64,000 nt of DNA from Adineta ricciae (taxonomy: Eukaryota > Rotifera > Eurotatoria > Adinetida > Adinetidae): positions 20,374-84,373 of the forward strand of contig CAJNOJ010000320.1 in assembly GCA_905250025.1 (NCBI GenBank), read 5' to 3'. Below the pieces are notes generated by a model, which did not search any database, was not told the DNA's origin, and saw only the letters and a program-made list of their open reading frames with translations. This document shows, in pieces, positions 2,106-31,113 of this stretch (position 1 is the first letter of the stretch; each line of letters opens with the position of its first letter). The translations under genes were made by a program, and so were the position numbers.

Positions 2106-2636
2106 ATGCAATCTGTTCGTTCTCATTTTCTTGAAAATAAACTTGAAAAAATGTTCTCTAGTTTGTCTTCTTGTCGACCGAGTATTTTGTTAGCATCTGT
2201 TCTACGTTCACCAACAACTCGTTCGATAAGTAAAAGATCCGATGAAGATGCCGAATCTCAACAGCGTTTGTCCGTAACGAAAAAAATGCGCTTGTTAGGA
2301 TTACAAAGTAATCAAGCACGGAAAGCATTGTCGATTTACGATGATTATGTACATCGTCAGAAGAAACTACCGGATTTACGTATGTTCGCTGTGGCAATTA
2401 ACTGTGCGATGATTGCGGAAGATTTAGCGAAAGGTTGTGAAATTCATCAATTTATCGAAAAGGACTTTCCACATTTAAAAGATAATTTGATGCTGAAACA
2501 ACAGCTACGTTATTTTTATATAAAATGTAACGATCAACAATCAGCTGATAAACTTTTTCAACAAACATCAACGAAACCGCAAGAAAGTCAAAACACGATA
2601 TCGCAGGATTTGGGTGTGACTAATAAAAAACAATGA
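2106..2636 (+). CDS. Small PPR-like protein, possibly mitochondrial
   Basis: Single-exon 176-aa frame. From Met16 the N-terminus is rich in Ser/Arg/Leu and free of acidic residues until about residue 45, which fits a mitochondrial targeting peptide. Residues ~60-155 are helical and read like two or three pentatricopeptide-type helix pairs: the stretch around INCAMIAEDLAKGCEIHQFI resembles the plant-type PPR pattern, followed by a second unit ending in CNDQQSADKLF. PPR proteins bind organellar RNA. Short intronless PPR-like genes would be unusual for an animal and could reflect transfer, but family assignment rests on pattern alone. An alternative is another alpha-solenoid (TPR-like) protein. 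Two in-frame ATGs (2106, 2151) could serve as start. Confidence 0.5.
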   Translation: MQSVRSHFLENKLEKMFSSLSSCRPSILLASVLRSPTTRSISKRSDEDAESQQRLSVTKKMRLLGLQSNQARKALSIYDDYVHRQKKLPDLRMFAVAINCAMIAEDLAKGCEIHQFIEKDFPHLKDNLMLKQQLRYFYIKCNDQQSADKLFQQTSTKPQESQNTISQDLGVTNKKQ

Positions 2637-3309
2637 AAAAGCGTATCTAAGTCTTGTCAAATAAATATCTAATGCGTGCTATTTCTGTTGTATTGTATGA
2701 GCAAAGATTTATGTTTCTATAGAATTGTGAATCATCGGTTCGTAAGGTAAAAGAGTGTTGTATGTCGCATTCTCCTTATCTCGGGCAAAAAGTACTTTTG
2801 CATGCAAAATATTTTTCAACCAATCATCAAAATACAGCCAGTAACGCTTTTTTAATGGATATTTCATAAAGAGACAAAATGGGCAATATCAAACCTAAAC
2901 AAATCAATTACTTAAGAAATATGAAAGGAAATGAATGTTAGATAAGTAGTTTAATGCATTCGAGGTATTATGAATATGATGACGCTGTATGCTCGAGATT
3001 TCAGTAAGACATTGATAGTTTTGTCGATCGTATTCAGTTTCCTAGGCCTAATATCAAAATTACGATTGTCAAGTCGTTGGCTTTTATTGGAAATTCTTGA
3101 TGAAATTGAGACTAATCAGGGTGTATGCATAGATGTTTATTCAAAAAGAAAACAATCTTTGTTAAATCCTTTTTGTACACAACTAATAATTCGTAAACAC
3201 AAAAGACGTGACGCAAAATTTAAAAAGCGTTGTTGATTTTGAACATCAAATAACTGTAATGAAACACTTTCGTGATATTAAATCGAATACAAGTCTATGG
3301 TAAAGCGTC
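2637..3309. other. Gene-free stretch
   Basis: Includes an 88-aa frame (2970-3236, +) with no similarity I recognise and no splice or family support; not called. AATAAATA at about 2661 could be the poly(A) signal of the PPR-like gene. Confidence 0.4.
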
Positions 3310-3960
3310 TTATCGTTTTAGCTGTCTGTTTCCCGATGCCGATCTTTCCTTTAAATCTGTAATTGGTTGCAAGTGGAGTGGTTTCCATCTGAAGAACCAA
3401 CTAATTTGATAGTCACTGTGTGTCGAATATTTCGTAATAATCTGTGTCGATGTCTGAAATAGAGGTTGGTAGTTACTGTATAAATGAAAATACTTGGTAC
3501 TTACTAGAATGGCATTTGTTATAGGAATATCGGGCAATGTCATTTTTGAGTTTTCTTTTACATATACTCGGATCTTTTCCAAAGAATAATTCGTTCGAAG
3601 AAAAGAATATAGACCTTTTTTTCACAGTTGTTCTTACATCGCTTCCTTAATCCTACGTAAAAACTCCTTCTCTGTTATTCCTTGTGCAATTGTATTGATT
3701 TTAACTTGCCGACTGTCAGACTCGTATACTTCATCTGTTTCTTTATTGTTTTCTTCCCTCGCTTCCAAAGGAAAGTCTGCATCGTCTCGCCCATACGCAT
3801 TCTTTGGGATGTGTTTCTCGTTAGAACGTTGAGTTTGAGTTTGTTTCGCTTCACTGGTAAATAAGGCATCTTTATGATATTGCCTGAGAAATTGTATCTC
3901 ATGCATAGCTGCTGCAATTGTGGTAATTTTTGTTCCATGTTTGCAGCTGTCTGTTACCTT
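3310..3960 (-). CDS. Tentative spliced gene, function unknown
   Basis: Two minus-strand frames look coding. The downstream one (3310-~3582) contains a clear intron of about 51 bp (donor GTAAGTACC, acceptor CTATTTCAG) whose removal joins LPDIPITNAIL to TSTQIITKYST in frame, and ends in stop at 3310. The upstream one (3634-3906 and beyond) is acidic/Lys-rich and could join through an intron with donor GTAGGATT and acceptor near 3623, giving EKEFLRLYSFLRTNYSLEKI across the junction. The 5' end is not resolved. I do not recognise the family. The exon joins are inference; transcript data would decide. Confidence 0.35.
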
Positions 3961-4103
3961 AATTGTTGTCCATCACATCCGGTTTGATGAACAAATAAAT
4001 TAAATAAACAATTGAAACTAGAAAAGATAAAACACAAGAAGTGGTTTCCTTTGATGTGCCATAAATTTTCATACTCTGAAGTATTTTGTAGACTGTCTCC
4101 ATT

Positions 4104-4249
4104 TCAAGTCGTCCAATGGCCTATGCCACTTGGTGTTGGTGTGTCTGGTGGAATATAAACTAATTCGATTGCAGGTTGAGTTGTATTATTACCAATGACT
4201 TGTTCGACATACCCATTTTTATGCAATATTATAGTTCGTCTGTCGATCA
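4104..4249 (-). pseudogene. Possible OTU-like protease tail fragment
   Basis: After a possible acceptor (CTAAAG) at 4250 a short exon encodes a segment ending PAIELVYIPP, a Pro-rich loop, then GIGHWTT and a stop. The pattern beta-strand, Pro-rich loop, Gly-His-aromatic resembles the catalytic-His end of OTU-type cysteine proteases, which in rotifers are often carried by mobile elements. The rest of a protease domain (Asp/Cys block) was not found nearby. It lies just downstream of the HEXXH gene and might instead be an alternative end of that transcript. Confidence 0.25.
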
Positions 4250-4483
4250 CTTTAGATATGAGGGTAAGAGTGGAAATGTGGGATAAGTTAAGGAATTCTA
4301 TATGATGTAAATAGTTTGTTAAATCGAAGCACAGAAAGTTTTCGAGTACATGTACAATACAAAAATCCAATGGCGAGGTTCGGCACAATATCACCATGAA
4401 TAGATTGATGTAGAAGAAGAGTGTTTTTGAAAACACTAGCAGAGTGAATGATTTCCCATTGGAGACATATATATGTGACTCCT

Positions 4484-5520
4484 TTATGCTTTCCACATAA
4501 TCACTCGATCGCGTTCTTGTCCATTCGCATCTAACAATGGCTGATCATCGTCATTTTCGTCGTCATCATCGATCATTCCATCCGGACCCCATCCGCATGT
4601 AGTTGATGGAGTTTCATTCATTCGTGTTATCCTTGGTGTTGTTCGATCCCTATAACACACAAACAAATGGGGTCTTTCCAAAGAAAAAAAAACTTTTCTC
4701 CTTACTTTGATTGGCGTTTTCTTTTCCGAGGAACTGCTGTCGACGAGAGAACTTGGGTTAATATCATTGGTATTGATTCAATCACAGCCAAGTTGAGTTT
4801 CTTGAAATATAATAAATAATCGGTTGTTATTTCTTGTTTATTTCTTCTTTCTCTAAGAATGACGTGATTGATCTTGAAAACATTCTTTTCTACGCCTGAG
4901 TAATCACCAACCGCGTCGACCACTGAGCCGAAAAAATGTCTTTCGATGGCATCACCAGCTTCTCCAGTCAGTGCATGGGTGGCTGGTGAAGAAAATCGTT
5001 CATCATAATCGCCAGATGGCATCTGACGACCCATTTCCGCAAGACAAGCATGAGCAATTTCATGAAGTAATTTGGCATAGAAGAAAAAAACTAAACGGGA
5101 ATAGATTTCGCTATCATTCTCATTGATATCGATTGATCCATCGATAAGAGATTTGTCCATCGTAATTCTATCGAATGACGAACGATGTCGATGACCAAGA
5201 GTAAATGTCGACCAGTTATCGGCAAATGAATCGATTTTCAAGCGAATATTTTGAAGAACTGTACATTGATGTCGGTAAATTGTGCGAATATGTTTGAGAG
5301 ATTCACTTAGATCAAATAATGGCTCATTGCGAAGAGATTGAACACACGTTTGCGCGAATTTTACCGAAAGATTAGGATTAGCTATCGTGATTTCGATCAT
5401 TCGAAGAGCTTGAATGAAAGATGAAGACTTCAACAGTTGAGTATCAATTCGATGTTGCTGAAAATATCGAAATTGTAAGTCCATATTAGATGCGATTTCT
5501 GAAACAGAAATATCAAACAT
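4484..5520 (-). CDS. HEXXH-motif protein, putative zincin-like
   Basis: Two exons, 5520-4706 and 4649-4484, joined across a 56-bp intron (GTAAGG...TTATAG), giving 326 aa. Residues 153-157 are HEIAH, the HEXXH zinc-binding motif, in a hydrophobic helix (AKLLHEIAHACL). About 30 residues later comes GEAGDAIERHFFG, where a Glu (E187 or E193) could be a third ligand as in gluzincins. A Lys/Arg cluster (RKRKRQSK) sits at the splice junction and a very acidic tail (DDDDENDDD) follows. No signal peptide is visible. The start at 5520 is the first ATG; an additional 5' exon is possible. The exact family is not recognised, so protease activity is inference from the motif. Confidence 0.65.
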
Positions 5521-6775
5521 TGAACGAGGAAGATACTTTCTCCGATGATGAAGAACAATTTTTTTGTAATTCTCGGTGTCAACAATACGAGATTGATGAG
5601 AAACTGAAAATGTTGTTCATTAACAAAGAATATGTTCTGTTTGTATTTGTCAAAGAGGCATTGTCTACAATGTAGACTCTACATATCTAATCAATTCTGT
5701 GACGTGATAGGCAGTTAAAATGAGTTGAGTGAACTCAGATCTCGATAGATGTCTCCCTCAGTGAATACTGATTTTACCCTGATATATCGTTAAACGAAAT
5801 TTTTCACCATATACACTTCTTCTATCAATATTGTCCAAATCAAATAAACAAGTAGAATAAGTTGACATTTTTTAGATTGGAAAAGCCCAGAACTCATGTT
5901 TATAAACGATACAAAACAATTTCAACGCAACTACTAAAATATCATCATTTTCTATATAGTAAAAACCCATATTGCGATTAATTCGATTGAAAAGTTATGA
6001 AAATTTTCCACTAATCTTTCCTTGAGATGTTATATTCGCGATACTGGTTATCCATATCTCAACCTGCTGGAATGGAAGCTAATAATGTAAAGAGATGATC
6101 GAAGATTATCATAATGTCACTGTTTGTCAGGCTCGTTGGCAATGGAATATGTGCAATATGCAATCATTGTTTGTCATTGGATCAATGATTACAAGCGACC
6201 GTGTTTGAAGTGTATCAATAAAATAGTTATGCATCTTTTTCTTGTCAAGTTATCTATTCATAGTGTTAACATCAAAGCGATTTCGATAGGTTTTCTGCTG
6301 ATGAAATGAAAATTATTTCGGCCAACAATCGTTGTCAACATTGCGAAGATTTCCATTTAGAGTCGTGTTTTCGATAAATTGTACTTCGTCCTATGTTTTT
6401 CAAATACAATCTCGCAATTGAACTTTTATCACATTTGCACTATATCCCATGGAAGAAATATTATATTTCTTTGCTTATTATTTTCTGACTTTTTCTTTCG
6501 TGTCATTGTTTAATCATGTAGAATTGATGTTTTTTTTCACTCTGTACAAAATATTATCAAAAAAGAGAAAAGAAGCGCAGTACACCTCGACGAGTTGAAT
6601 AGAAGGAAAAAATGTTTAAAATACACACATACACTTATTGAGAGAGAACACACATGAAGAAAAAGAAAGGGTCTCATGACTAGTCATATTTATAGAAAGA
6701 AGGAAAAGAATAAACATAGATGGGACGGACTAAACAGCACCTGTTCGAATAGAGATACAAGATGTCAATAAAGTT
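5521..6775. other. Intergenic stretch, no gene seen
   Basis: About 1.25 kb between two minus-strand genes. The only frames are two 61-aa plus-strand ones (5490-5675, 6124-6309) without family resemblance or splice context. Part must hold the promoter of the HEXXH gene and the 3' UTR of RB1CC1. Confidence 0.5.
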
Positions 6776-11007: not shown

Positions 11008-11030
11008 CTAAAAGAATTGTCTTTCAGATT

Positions 11031-11031
11031 N
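11031..11031. other. Single-N assembly join
   Basis: The N interrupts the RB1CC1 gene in an intron upstream of its first visible exon. The 121 bases to its right (11032-11152) are identical to 18904-19024 and differ at the next base (T at 11153 versus C at 19025). This is a contig boundary, not a real adjacent sequence. Confidence 0.85.
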
Positions 11032-11638
11032 GAGAAAAATTCAATGAAAAAGAATTATTATTTGGTTAGACGTACCAGCATGTCGAGCAGCTTTCAAGGC
11101 TTCGTTAGCTAAAATAAACATTTTGATGAGGAAAAGATGGGAACAGAGTGAATAAACCTTTATCACGAGTTAATTCGAAAGTTTGTTGAGCTCAATTAAA
11201 CGTTCATACTAATATTAGCATCGAAACCAAGTCAGGTATCTAATTATTACCTGAAGCTTTGACATCATGAGCTACTTTTGCTAATTTTTCTTTGACTACA
11301 ATATCAAACTTATCAGTTGATATATAAATAACTCTGAAATTACTCAGCAACATCAGCACATTCATCGGCAAGTCTACTTCCAGCTTTATCGTTTACATAT
11401 TCAACATCTCCAGCAACTCTCGGTGAAAGCAGCATCTTTAACCCAGAATGATCTATATGCATGATGAAAATTGAAATGAAAACGCCAATAAATAAAATTG
11501 TACCATTTCAATAACTTTATCTTTCCGATCAGCAGGAGTAGCAGCTTCAACAACTTGTTGAGTTGCTGACTTCTCAGCAAATGTCACCGTGATAAACAGA
11601 GCAATGCAAATAAGTGAAAAGAACTTGTTGAGTGTCAT
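11032..11638 (-). pseudogene. Degenerate LEA gene copy
   Basis: Reads from ATG at 11638 (MTLNKFFSLICIALFITVTFA, a signal peptide almost the same as in the LEA gene at 19889), with a first exon matching that gene. The second exon is shortened and frame-shifted, with stops shortly after VKDAAF. Later exons matching the LEA gene's small exons follow (around 11310-11270, 11200-11160, 11125-11085). Several internal exons of the intact gene are absent. The copy is cut at 11031 by an assembly gap. The final 121 bp are identical to the intact gene while the rest is clearly diverged, so that part may belong to either locus. Confidence 0.7.
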
Positions 11639-18757: not shown

Positions 18758-19889
18758 TTAGAGATCAGCATTTCTTTTAGCTTTTTGTGCTTTTTCACTA
18801 GTTTCTTCGGCGGTTTCTTTCGCTTTCTTTGATGCTTGTTTTCTTGATTCTTGAACGTATTCGGTGGCGGAATCAACTGCATCAGCTCCTACAAGACATT
18901 TTCGAGAAAAATTCAATGAAAAAGAATTATTATTTGGTTAGACGTACCAGCATGTCGAGCAGCTTTCAAGGCTTCGTTAGCTAAAATAAACATTTTGATG
19001 AGGAAAAGATGGGAACAGAGTGAACAAACCTTTATCACGAGTTAATTCAACGGTTTGTTCAGCTAAAATTCCATATAAACAATCGATAATCAACATAGCA
19101 GAAAAGTTATTTATTTACGTAATTTTTTAGCTCGTTGAACTCCATCAGCACCATATTCAAGCGCAGCTTCATAGGCATCAGCACCTAAATAGAACAAGAA
19201 TTGAGAAAAAGCAAACGGACCAGTTGACTTCTTCCCTACCTGATTTCTGAGCTGCTTTGAGTGCTTCATTAGCTGAAAATGAGAAAAAAGAAAATAAATA
19301 TTTTCTCACTTTGAAAATCTCACCTTTATCTTTTCCAACTTCGAATGCTTGTTCACCTAATTTTTGACCTTGTTTCATACCTTCTTGCGCATATTCTTGA
19401 CCAGTTTTAGCAGCATCATTCGCAAATTGTTGTGCTAAATGAAATTTCATAGAAAAAATCGAATCCAAACATTTGTCCGATTATTACCGGAAGCTTTGAC
19501 ATCATCAGCTACTTTTCCTAATTTTTCTTTTGCTAGAATACGAAACTTATCAGTAGACATATCAATACATCTTAAATTACTCACCAACATCAGCATATTC
19601 ACCGGCGAGTTTACTTCCAGCTTCATAGGCTTGTCCAGCTTTATCTTTCACGTATTCAGCACCTTCAGCAACTTTTGGTGACGCAGCATCATATGCTGCA
19701 CTGGCTGCATCTTTAACCTACAACAATATTTATATGCCATAAAGACTGAAATGAATAGTATTGTACCTTTTCAACAACTTTGTCCTTTAAATCAGCAGCA
19801 GCATCAACAGCTTGTTCAGTTGCCGATTTTTTTGCGAATGTTGCCGAGATAAAGAGAGCAATACAAATAAGCGAGAAGAATTTGTTCAT
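18758..19889 (-). CDS. LEA protein with ER signal and C-terminal NADL
   Basis: Late embryogenesis abundant (group 3 type) protein; such proteins protect membranes and proteins during drying. Start ATG 19889, stop TAA 18758, about 235 aa in roughly ten exons. Residues 1-19 form a signal peptide (MNKFFSLICIALFISATFA). The mature part is Ala/Lys/Glu/Asp-rich amphipathic helix built of 11-residue units, without Cys, Trp or Pro clusters. It ends KAKRNADL; the last four residues resemble an ER-retention signal. Bdelloid LEA proteins with an ER signal and a KDEL-like tail are known from Adineta ricciae, so an ER/extracellular role is likely. Three internal exons are exactly 33 nt and each encode one 11-mer (ANEALKAAQKS, AEQTVELTRDK, ANEALKAARHA), all in phase 1. 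The gene diverges from the secreted-protein gene at 20744. Confidence 0.85.
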
Positions 19890-26939: not shown

Positions 26940-29900
26940 AAATAGATACCAAGAACAACTGCATCGGTAATCCGTTCCGTTTCCTGAGGATTACATTTTA
27001 TCATTCCACTAAAGTGTCTGATGCTTTGACGACGTAGATCAACATTTCCTGGAACATTCGCTGGCCCTGTTGTGGTTGTTAATGACATAGAATTGGAAAT
27101 ATCATTGTGACCATTGAGTTGACCCATTCCGTTCATTGATCCATTTTGAAGAACTTGCTCCCAAGAGACATTTCCCGCAGAAAAGCTCTTATTAACAAGT
27201 TTGATAACGCGTCGTAATTTTCGGATCTCGGCGTGATTCGTTTGAATTTGTTGATGAAGTTCCTAAACATTTGCATAGAAATCAGTTGTTGAGCAAATTA
27301 ACTTACCAGATTTTCGTTAATAACATTGGCGATTTGTTGTTTCATTGCATCGTCCACCGTATTTTCGTCAATTGATTTACATAGCTCTAGATTTTCTGCT
27401 TCGACTTGTGCCAAACGTTCGTGTGTTCGTTCGTATTCTCGCTGATATGATGCTCGACATTGTTCCAGTTCAAGTTCCAACATTCTGAATAAAATTCTCT
27501 TTTTCAAAGAAAAATGTCTTTTTAAGTCAATTTTACTTATTGATTTGTTTTTGACTTTGATATGCTTGTTCAATGGCGTCACTTGCAATCACATCATCGG
27601 ATTCATTCTCATGTTGCATAACTCGTTCTTGTAATTTCGATTTCATTTCAATTTGCTCACGACGACGATGTTCTAATTCCGCATTTAATGCATCGAATTG
27701 TGCTAAAAAGAAAACAATTAAGCAGATGATTTGAATAAAAAATGAAACTTACCAAGTAATTGTTCTTTCGCTGCTATTTCATCGCCCTTCAAAACTTCTT
27801 CTCTCAACGCTTTCAAATCAGTTCTTAATTTATCCATTTCTAATTCATCTAAATGCCACGATGAATTCTTTTTCATTGTGCTTAGTTTCGATGAATTTGT
27901 CACTCCTTTATCCAATTCTTCATTCATTGTTTTGTTTTCTTGTTCAAGTTGTCTTAAACGTCGTTGAAGGCGAAGGAGAAGTCCACCACCAGGAGCAGTA
28001 CCGGCTTCGACAAGTTCATCGAGTGGTTCATTCGTATGCGTTGTTGTTAAATGACGTTGATGAGTATTGATCGTCGACGAAAGAAGAGGAGGAGGACGAC
28101 GAGGAGTTAAACCATCACTCGTCAACGGTGCTTGATCCTAATACAAAAGTCAATACATTCATTCTCATCATCAATTAATCGATTAACCCACATAACTTAA
28201 ATTACGACATACATCGCAAAAAAACCACATGATCACTCGAATGTCGTTTTACATGAACAAAGAAAACATTTTTTTATTCCCTCTGGTTCTGATTGCCTGC
28301 TAGGAAATATTAATCTTAAATCCCGATGGTTGAAAGTTTCCGAAACGACTAATCTTCTTTTGTTGAAAATGAGAATATTTACCGGTAAATCATCAAGATC
28401 AAGTGTGTCCATAAATTTCGAATCCCAAGTCATATTCGAGTCCGATGGTGCTGATTTGACTTTGTGAAGATTTTCATTCTGTAATTCACTTTGTAGATTG
28501 TCGCATTTTTGTTCCAATCGATGCATTTCAATCACTAAGCGTTGTCTTTGTTGTCGTTCAGCTGTTAATTCTTCTTCTAATTGTTTCATACGAATGGCGG
28601 ATGAATCTTGTGTGGACAAATCTCCGCGTAATTGTTCTTCTAATTTTTTAATTTCGTTGTCTTTTTGTTCAACGTCATTTTCTAATTGAGCAATTAGATC
28701 GGTGTTTTTAGAAATGATTTCATCTTTTGATTGTTTGGTTTGAAGTAGATCTGCACGTATCGATGCATTTTCGGTTTTTAATCGTTCGTTTTCTAATCGA
28801 AGTCTAAGAAGAAACGAATTGTTTTAGGAGGTAAAAAGAAAATTTATCGTCTTACTGTTGAAGTTCTTCTTCAAGAATGGCTTGTTTCTTCAGATTTTGT
28901 TTCAATTCTTTATTATTGACTTTTAATTGGTCAAAATCTTTTTTGAAATTTTCTAATTCTTGTTCTTTATTAACCAACCGTTCATTATCTCGTTTTTGTT
29001 CGTCAATTTTATGTTGAAGTGAAATAATTTTATTTTCTAAACCTTTATTCAATTGTCGTTGATGTTCGATCGAACGTTGTTCAACTCGAAGTTTTTTGAC
29101 TTCGAGACAAGCTTCACGTCGACGTTGATGAGATTGTAAAAGAACAATTCCGCGTTGAAATGTGATAAATCTTCTTCGAGCAATCCACATACGTACAGAT
29201 GATTGAAGAGCCAGAACACTTCGTTCCAACATTCGTTGCTGAAGATTTTTTCGAACTAAATAACCTCGACAATAAGATTGAATGTCAATAAGAACTGTTC
29301 GGAGATTTTCAAAACGACGATGAACTAATTGTCGACGCCATAACGATTGAAATAATATTACAGCATGTGTACGACGAATATTTTCTGCATGTTTTTGTGC
29401 TAAATACCGTCTCGCTAAACATTGCAATGCCAGAGTCGTACGTCGGATTTTCAAGTAGCGTTTTCGTGCATAATAAGCTCTGTAAGTAGTTTGAATTTTG
29501 ATGATACAAGCACGAAGTTTTTCGGAACGTAATTTTTCGAGATAAGCAACTTGTCCTGCACGGAAGAAGATCTTTGTATTTCCAAATTGATATTTATCCG
29601 GATCGGAAATTAAGTTTTTTAGAATATTTTCACATGTTCGACGATGATTCGTTCGATCGATCAACGCTGAACGTGTTAATAACCGATAACGCACAAAAAA
29701 ATCGTGATAACTCCAACGTGATGGATAACCAGCAGCGCTGATACGAACCGTTTCCAAAACACCACAAGCACGCAATTGTTGCACTGCACGACGAGGTTCA
29801 AATCTGTAAAGAAAAGTTATTAAAAGAATTTCGAAATCCGATGAGCAAACTTGATCAGGTTTTGAAGGACAAACGACTTACGTGAATGAAGCTTTGGCGT

Positions 29901-31113
29901 CATTGGGTTTGATGCAACGAACGTAATGAGGTTCGGTCGAATTCAATGCTAACATTAAACTTGTTAAAGATTCACGAAACTATTAGAAAAGAAAAAGATT
30001 TTGTTTAGTTGAATCTTTCCAAGAATAACAAAAGGATAAGTGTGCTTAGAACACCAAACAAAAGATATGCTTTTCAAGGAATGACAAAGAGAGTAGAAAT
30101 ATCACAAAAACCAACCTGTGAACCAAGTGAATAGCGCTGCAAAGATTATTTCTATTGATAAAAATCTCGTTCCTACAAAAACCGTTATTTACCTGCGATC
30201 CAACGGTTTTCTTTCTTTGTGCTTGAACTTTGGAAGCTGCTTGTAATGTTCCGGTTTTCTGTACTTGATACGATTTCACTGATGTCGAACCTTTTACTCC
30301 ATCATCTTCTTCCAAGAATAATTGAACAACAAACTCCAACTAAAAACATCTTTCTTCGAATAAACACTTCTTTCCAAACGAGAAACTTACTTCACTTTCT
30401 TTCAACATTTTCAATTGATCTTCCAAAACTGTGTCTCGATTTTTCTCTAAAAATCCATCGATTGAATATTCCACTTTCTCGGCAAAATGATTGATGATAA
30501 ATGTCGAATTTGCTGCTAGTTTTTTCGTTAAAAAATCCGGATGTTTGCCATGTTGACTCACTAATTTCCTATGCCAGTTTTCGTCTGAACCTTTGGGCAT
30601 CTACGAAGAGAAAATCTTTTCTTTCTTTCAAACAAAAATTCTCAAACAAACTTTGCATTCTTCATCTAGCAAGTCTAAAATTCCTAGTTTATTTTCAATC
30701 AGATCAATACACGGTTGATTATCATAAAATTGAATAAATGACCAAGTAATTTCTTCTTTCATATATTCTTCTTGTTCAAGTTTAAAAACGTGCTAAAATC
30801 AGTAAGGAAATTCATGTTTTTCAACCGAAATAAGTTTTCTTACTTGACAAAACTGCTGTTGTAGTTTTTCATTCGCGTAATTTATACAAAATTGTTCAAA
30901 GCTATTGATTTCAAATGTTTCGAAGCTAAACGACAGCAGAAACTTTTGAAGAGAAGCTCCAAACAAAGGCTAAACTTACCCGTAAATGTCTAAAACTCCA
31001 ATAAAGGACTGTCGTTGTCCCACATATTCTAAAGATTTATTTATTTCATTCACAATCCATCCGAACAACTGCGAATAGATATGTTTCGCCAGCGCATCTC
31101 GAGCAAACAGTGC
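26940..31113 (-). CDS. myo5: Class V myosin heavy chain, partial copy 1
   Basis: Actin-based cargo motor. The first visible exon (31113, after acceptor TTGAAAG) encodes [20 protein letters not shown], about residue 380 of a class V motor; the N-terminal half of the motor, including the P-loop, is missing beyond the N at 31140. Then come [24 protein letters not shown], the conserved [20 protein letters not shown] with [28 protein letters not shown], six IQ motifs (~29540-29080), and a coiled coil starting [19 protein letters not shown] as in MYO5A. The coiled coil ends near [18 protein letters not shown] just before the DIL domain, where the sequence stops at 26939. Introns are short with consistent phases. 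A 21-nt exon at 30116-30136 is described separately. Copy 2 is about 97-98% identical by eye. Confidence 0.9.
30116..30136 (-). other. 21-nt microexon in myosin copy 1
   Basis: Flanked by acceptor TTTGCAG and donor GTTGG; encodes RYSLGSQ in phase 0. It lies between the exon ending KKTVGSQ and the one starting FRESL. Vertebrate MYO5A reads directly from TVGHQ to FRNSL here, so the microexon adds seven residues ending in a repeat of GSQ. The same exon occurs at 34346-34366 in copy 2. Confidence 0.6.

Follow-up and report, generated by a model that had tools for sequence, protein, structure and literature searches.

In fibrillar collagen genes, with their 54-bp exons, and in others of the kind, each exon comprises whole repeat units, the exons share an equal phase, and growth has been by tandem duplication. 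In the bdelloid Adineta ricciae, ArLEA1A and ArLEA1B are LEA proteins of LEA_4 type that derive from former alleles and are similar though diverged; the available portions of two reports describe for them a protective effect on proteins or an association with membranes (PMC2292704, PMC4326354). The C. elegans gene lea-1 encodes a group 3 LEA protein with many 11-mers and many known isoforms, and the available part of its description makes no mention of a one-motif-per-exon structure (PMC8670023). Introns of the bdelloid alpha-tubulin copy classes are short, most of them 42-70 nt, and intron sets differ between classes; the excerpt available of that account does not mention introns linked to repeats (PMC3464624). 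Neither the literature matches listed nor the available passages of the papers cited here describe exons of motif size in LEA genes of bdelloids, which is not proof of novelty (PMC8670023, PMC5916493, PMC4132023, PMC2292704, PMC4326354, PMC10809525, PMC3464624, PMC9031878).

We analyzed a 64,000-nt stretch of A. ricciae DNA, here called the window, which carries a LEA-like gene of nine coding exons on the minus strand (ATG at 19889, stop at 18758; product of 235 aa). Like lea-1 it is rich in 11-mers and, unlike lea-1 as far as the available description goes, it has exons that hold a single motif. The splice model is the longest among 4200 open models, with borders picked by eye and inferred from the DNA; GT-AG at every intron was imposed by the models, which allowed nothing else. 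Its exons are as follows.

19767..19889, minus strand: coding exon 1, 123 nt, with a signal-peptide-like N-terminus as judged by eye, MNKFFSLICIALFISATFA; 121/123 identical in the allele at C745
19585..19717, minus strand: coding exon 2, 133 nt, phase 0 to 1, several 11-mers uninterrupted by introns
19488..19532, minus strand: coding exon 3, 45 nt, phase 1-1, 15 residues; same length at C57 and C88
19324..19434, minus strand: coding exon 4, 111 nt, phase 1-1, 37 residues (4 + 33); same length at C57 and C88
19240..19272, minus strand: coding exon 5, 33 nt, phase 1-1, ANEALKAAQKS, the start of repeat copy 2; allele 33/33 identical
19119..19184, minus strand: coding exon 6, 66 nt, phase 1-1, GADAYEAALEY GADGVQRAKKL; same length at C57 and C88
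19030..19062, minus strand: coding exon 7, 33 nt, phase 1-1, PEQTVELTRDK, the end of repeat copy 2; allele 33/33 identical
18948..18980, minus strand: coding exon 8, 33 nt, phase 1-1, ANEALKAARHA, the start of repeat copy 3; allele 33/33 identical
18758..18888, minus strand: coding exon 9, 131 nt including the stop, C-terminus RNADL

The eight introns measure 49, 52, 53, 51, 55, 56, 49, and 59 nt. Intron 1 is in phase 0 and introns 2-8 are all in phase 1, which makes each of exons 3-8 symmetric; as had been claimed from the sequence alone, such exons could be removed without breaking the frame. Measured against the collagen rule, the shared phase is there (6 of the 7 internal exons are 1-1), whereas exons made of whole 33-nt multiples account for 4 of the 7. 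The sequence-only reading had described a gene built of 33-nt exons with others near multiples of that length. Three exons of 33 nt, in phase 1 at both ends and with one 11-mer each, are indeed present in both the splice model and the map of the allele, but "built of" was an overstatement: they are 3 of the 9 coding exons and supply 33 of the 235 residues, and exons 2 and 4 each hold several 11-mers with no introns between them. Among the supposed near multiples 66 is exact, while 111 (99 + 12) and 133 (132 + 1) are not multiples, and the 45-nt exon 3 was absent from that list. Two of the motifs it named, ANEALKAAQKS and ANEALKAARHA, were right; the third, given as AEQTVELTRDK, becomes PEQTVELTRDK once exon 7 is spliced. 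The codon that spans the exon 6/7 border is CCT (P), the A having come from taking the final G of the intron into the codon; at that residue A is found in the homeologs.

An allele of the gene at C745 is 96% identical in DNA and has the same nine exon lengths. Between the two, exons are identical at 695/708 positions and introns at 391/421 aligned positions; over the three exons of 33 nt the match is 99/99. C57 and C88 are a homeologous allele pair, the C57 protein being 70% identical to the window protein. Their exons, of which exon 1 was placed by hand in both models, measure 126, 520 or 652, 30, 45, 111, 33, 66, 33, 33, and 134 nt, so the exon-2 homologue is 520 nt in one and 652 nt in the other and is followed by a separate 30-nt exon. 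The block 45-111-33-66-33-33 is constant across the four intact copies, which are the two homeologs with two alleles apiece. Over exons 3-8 the window gene and C57 differ at 25, 15, and 41 of 107 sites at codon positions 1, 2, and 3, respectively, and their introns align with many gaps, with 32-36 identities in 58-72 columns (an alignment without a shuffle test). As in the bdelloid alpha-tubulins, in this family introns are short and intron sets differ. Such short introns, together with the pairing of alleles and of homeologs, are in keeping with a bdelloid genome.

We also built a small gene finder, trained on the introns of the window gene, so that its recovery of the window map is not independent; it returned the same map in the C745 allele, which is independent of training. 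C57, C152, and C44 were used in training as well, and C53 was left out. In a control, the gene strands at C57, C152, C44, and C53 scored 338-555 and the opposite strands at most 5.2, with a background of at most 58.6 over eight strand scans at four other places in the window. Loci of relatives were modelled on trimmed regions with a raised intron penalty; whole-locus runs chained spurious micro-exons. Together, the genomic comparisons confirmed that three one-motif 33-nt exons are really present in the window gene.

The mature window protein is hydrophilic (GRAVY -0.89), rich in Ala, Lys, and Glu (23.6, 14.8, and 10.6%), and free of Cys and Trp. Its hydrophobicity power at a period of 11/3 residues was 35.7, while 500 shuffles never exceeded 7.1, and the peak lay at 3.68; C57 and C53 likewise exceeded their shuffles at 11/3, whereas C44 did not (4.8 against a shuffle maximum of 6.9, peak 3.635). 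The protein thus has the traits of LEA group 3 (LEA_4): 11-residue periodicity, amphipathic-helix potential, a hydrophilic composition rich in Ala, Lys, and Glu, and no Cys or Trp. When we searched it against Pfam at E up to 10, LEA_4 (PF02987) was not among the 7 families returned, and the best row was Apolipoprotein at 20.5 bits against a cut-off of 90. C57, C44, and the second gene at C152 (gene B, below) had no match to LEA_4 when E was limited to 1, and C53 passed with 56.9 against the cut-off of 51.1. We call the window gene LEA-like because it has no Pfam LEA_4 match. A Pfam LEA_4 search of the gene's own genome returned nothing, and the controls were equally silent, so that result has no bearing on absence.

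The window gene appears, from its sequence, to be an intact gene for a LEA-like protein of group 3 type that would enter the secretory pathway, and RNADL may serve as an ER-retention-like tail. All 12 secretory-looking models (genes A and B described below, with the start of C61 gene A lying outside its model, C57/C88, C745, and the window gene) end in -DL or -EL (NADL, ATEL, VDL, LDL), as if they shared a loose ER-retention tail. C57 and C88, which are a pair as ArLEA1A and ArLEA1B are and whose C-terminus is ATEL, are candidates for the ArLEA1A and ArLEA1B genes, with the window gene as their homeolog. The tail of ArLEA1 is likewise ATEL. By likeness to ArLEA1A and ArLEA1B, the window protein may have a protective function.

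To place the 33-nt exons within the protein, the C-terminal part was compared with itself at offsets of 4-99 residues, and the scores were set against shuffles that keep the 11-residue register. In the window protein the best offset was 44 residues, with a score of 183 and 39/96 identities; none of 1000 shuffles reached 183 (mean 114.5, sd 14.4). The best offset in C57 was also 44, with a score of 145 that 58 of 1000 shuffles reached (mean 121.0), which is not significant alone (P 0.058). The two genes are homologous, so these are not two independent tests. The C-terminal super-repeat is thus 44 residues long (4 x 11; 132 nt). In its frame exon 8 takes the same repeat position as exon 5, with introns 4 and 7 coinciding and introns 5 and 8 coinciding. 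Exons 5, 6, and 7 make up one 132-nt unit, in which exon 7 is separate solely through intron 6. A further copy, the first, runs across exons 3 and 4 (ADDVKASAQQF ANDAAKTGQEY AQEGMKQGQKL GEQAFEVGKDK), starting with the last 7 residues of exon 3 and taking its remainder from exon 4; intron 3 misses the register of introns 5 and 8 by four residues. Counted modulo 33 nt, introns 4-8 of the window gene all share a single position, and the last five introns of C57 likewise share one.

If exons are taken as independent, the probability that at least 4 of 7 internal exons are 33-nt multiples is 2.7e-5, and that at least 4 of 6 in-frame exons are 11-codon multiples is 8.8e-4; that independence fails for both values if exon 8 copies exon 5. 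Once the duplication is granted, the coincidences left are that introns 5 and 6 share the register of intron 4, for which P is about 0.03, given that 11 of the 64 phase-1 sites available after a G fall in register. A pair among the three mini-exons, exons 5 and 8, probably goes back to duplication.

We next compared the exon maps of LEA-like relatives in the genome. The searches scored best candidates alone and revealed further LEA-like genes; among 14 models, C44 and C53 were found once each, without an allele. C20, C69, C61, and C152 each carry two distinct LEA-like genes, with gene A preceding gene B and the strand unchanged at all four places. The maps of the relatives are as follows.

Gene A at C20 and C69: exons of 114-109-127-71-153-137 nt
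Gene A at C152: exons of 114-55-127-104-141-137 nt (the C61 model is incomplete at its start)
Gene B at C20 and C69: exons of 214-131-199-17-164-92-99-146 nt
Gene B at C61 and C152: exons of 214-131-156-181-17-239-92-99-158 nt
C44: exons of 73-78-108-848-99-65-35-33-93-27-21-92 nt
C53: 26 exons

Internal exons that are multiples of 33 nt number 4/7 in the window gene and C745 and 4/8 in C57 and C88. The corresponding counts are 0/4 for gene A at C20, C69, and C152 (0/3 in the incomplete C61 model), 1/6 for gene B at C20 and C69 and 1/7 at C61 and C152, 2/10 for C44, and 0/24 for C53. Motif-sized exons mark the window gene and its homeologs, occur here and there in other genes, and do not characterize the family as a whole. 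A family-wide rule of 33-nt multiples is ruled out by gene A at 0/4 and C53 at 0/24.

Length differences among these genes fell both within exons and across introns. The alleles C57 and C88 encode 376 and 420 aa, and the 132-nt difference lies inside the 11-mer array of the intron-free exon 2. One exon of gene A differs by 33 nt (71 vs 104), and further in-exon differences are not multiples of 33 nt (55 vs 109, 141 vs 153, 164 vs 239, and 146 vs 158). Gene B at C61 and C152 has an extra symmetric exon of 156 nt (52 residues, no multiple of 11) that is absent at C20 and C69. At C152 the tail of this exon matches the end of the preceding exon at 74/90 nt and its head matches the start of the following exon at 49/66 nt, a pattern that would be expected of a duplication spanning one intron.

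C53 is a more striking relative than the window gene. At C53:50500-58500, minus strand, reverse-complement offsets 2506-5867, we modelled a 26-exon LEA gene encoding 582 aa, with nine tandem two-exon cassettes of 93+27 nt, all in phase 1-1. Two of the large exons are 60 nt, one 11-mer shorter than 93 nt, and one small exon is 30 nt. One 54-nt intron had been read through by the gene finder in a 174-nt exon, which we split by hand into 27+54+93, and GT-AG fits exactly. C44, a homologue of C53, has one 93-27 pair where C53 has nine cassettes. This contrast is the strongest and clearest case in the family of a length change across introns, which may be a gain in C53 or a loss in C44. The proposal that symmetric exons allow motifs to be gained or lost is thus borne out in relatives, by the cassettes of C53 and the 156-nt exon at C61 and C152, but not for the 33-nt exons of this gene, for which no gain or loss was seen among the four intact copies. 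The same sequence-only reading had held that related LEA genes without introns between the motifs would count against it; such genes were found as far as long stretches go, in exon 2 of C57 and C88 and in the 848-nt exon of C44. Overall, its interpretation is partly supported.

We consider it likely that the 33-nt exons are the trace of a 44-residue super-repeat that was tandemly copied together with its introns. Phase-1 introns would have sat at 11-mer borders inside the 132-nt unit, and tandem copying of unit and introns would have made exon 8 and introns 7 and 8 the counterparts of exon 5 and introns 4 and 5, with intron 6 splitting what is left of one unit, 99 nt, into 66 + 33. A duplication that preserves the frame and crosses an intron would force a new exon with equal end phases and the length of the unit. 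Since intron-spanning duplication yields the symmetric, "designed" look, that look needs no selection for skipping. The exon block would have been fixed since before the homeologs separated, and length changes in the family would continue through duplication or loss of repeat units, both inside exons and across introns.

The main rival is that introns were gained independently at a recurring site, similar K-A or x-G junctions (AAAG/C-like or CAG/G, with the slash marking the intron) giving each the same register and phase. Junctions are indeed G/C or G/G in 7 of the 8 window introns, and in C53 they repeat as GAAG/AAGT-like and AAAAG/CTG-like; the intron before the 30-nt exon of C57 and C88 is absent from the window gene, which shows that single introns are gained or lost. 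Nor is there clear shared descent among the introns. In C53 none was detected (intron similarity within position classes minus that between them was 0.008, permutation p 0.24), and for the introns flanking the extra exon of gene B similarity was marginal (P 0.12 at C61 and 0.04 at C152, single-base shuffles). The number of identical synonymous codons, compared with expectation, was 12 against 14.0 for the window copies and 12 against 10.9 for C57, and in C53 the values were 0.63 against 0.55 for the 93-nt exons and 0.66 against 0.66 for the 27-nt exons. Synonymous codons are therefore near saturation and the intron-similarity test is weak both ways; on these grounds intron similarity was set aside as proof of duplication. 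Against recurring insertion, introns 4-8 are all in register although only 11 of the 64 possible phase-1 sites after a G are, and the eighteen regularly alternating cassette introns of C53, against the few at the single pair of C44, would need many targeted insertions. We regard it as unlikely.

Retention of the symmetric mini-exons for regulated skipping, with an isoform ladder in 11-residue steps during drying, is less credible still. Exons 3-8 are all in phase 1-1, none would turn an 11/3 helix by more than 33 degrees, and several of the many lea-1 isoforms of C. elegans go up on desiccation, according to the available part of that report (PMC8670023), but the symmetry is already expected from duplication alone. 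That the map is an artefact, the short exons being spliced otherwise, or a chance coincidence, is very improbable. The borders considered do allow 4200 open models, and the map is known from DNA alone; on the other side stand the mini-exons that are fully identical in the allele, their equal lengths in diverged homeologs, the excess of changes at codon position 3, and the wide gap between gene-strand and other gene-finder scores.

Many of the unit lengths in the family, though not all, keep an 11/3 helix with its hydrophobic stripe close to register, and this register may be the property under selection. Exons 3-8 encode 15, 37, 11, 22, 11, and 11 residues, which correspond to shifts of 33, 33, 0, 0, 0, and 0 degrees. 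The exons of C53 shift the stripe by 164 degrees singly and by -33 degrees as a 40-residue pair. With a geometry of 100 degrees per residue some shifts worsen, the 37-residue exon 4 going to 100 degrees. The 10-residue exon of C57 and C88, at -98 degrees, is an exception to the register. A strict helix register for every exon is ruled out by that exon and by the 31-, 9-, and 20-residue exons of C53 taken singly.

A bolder possibility, which we hold to be doubtful, is that bdelloid LEA genes copy and drop cassettes sized by the turn of the amphipathic helix, and that the same exons can be skipped on drying. The 33-nt exons would be mobile one at a time, since a step of 11 residues leaves the stripe aligned, and the 93+27 exons of C53 would move as a pair only, because each alone flips the stripe by 164 degrees. 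Skipping of this kind could tune protein length on drying.

With duplication of the super-repeat as the preferred reading, the window gene offers a small, clear case in which a repeat protein and its introns may have grown together. The genome as a whole shows two routes side by side, repeat arrays within exons (C57/C88 and C44) and arrays of exon cassettes (C53). The exon map also gives exact isoform predictions for proteins of the drought-protection type.

The window carries a second, decayed copy of the gene about 7 kb from the intact one.

11032-11635, minus strand (also delimited as 11029-11635): decayed partial gene copy, the exon 1-3 region followed by the exon 7-8 region

In this copy the frame of the exon-2 region is broken and the exon 4-6 region is absent. 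A 167-nt stretch over exons 7-8 is 96% identical to the intact gene and the rest about 72%. The 96% stretch, which ends beside a single N at 11031, reflects either a recent conversion or an assembly join. Five single N bases occur in the window (11031, 26939, 31140, 35421, and 44232), possibly scaffold joins or polishing marks. Elsewhere in the window, the gene-finder control picked up a stretch on the minus strand at 27001-29955 that by eye resembles the end of a myosin motor plus a coiled coil.
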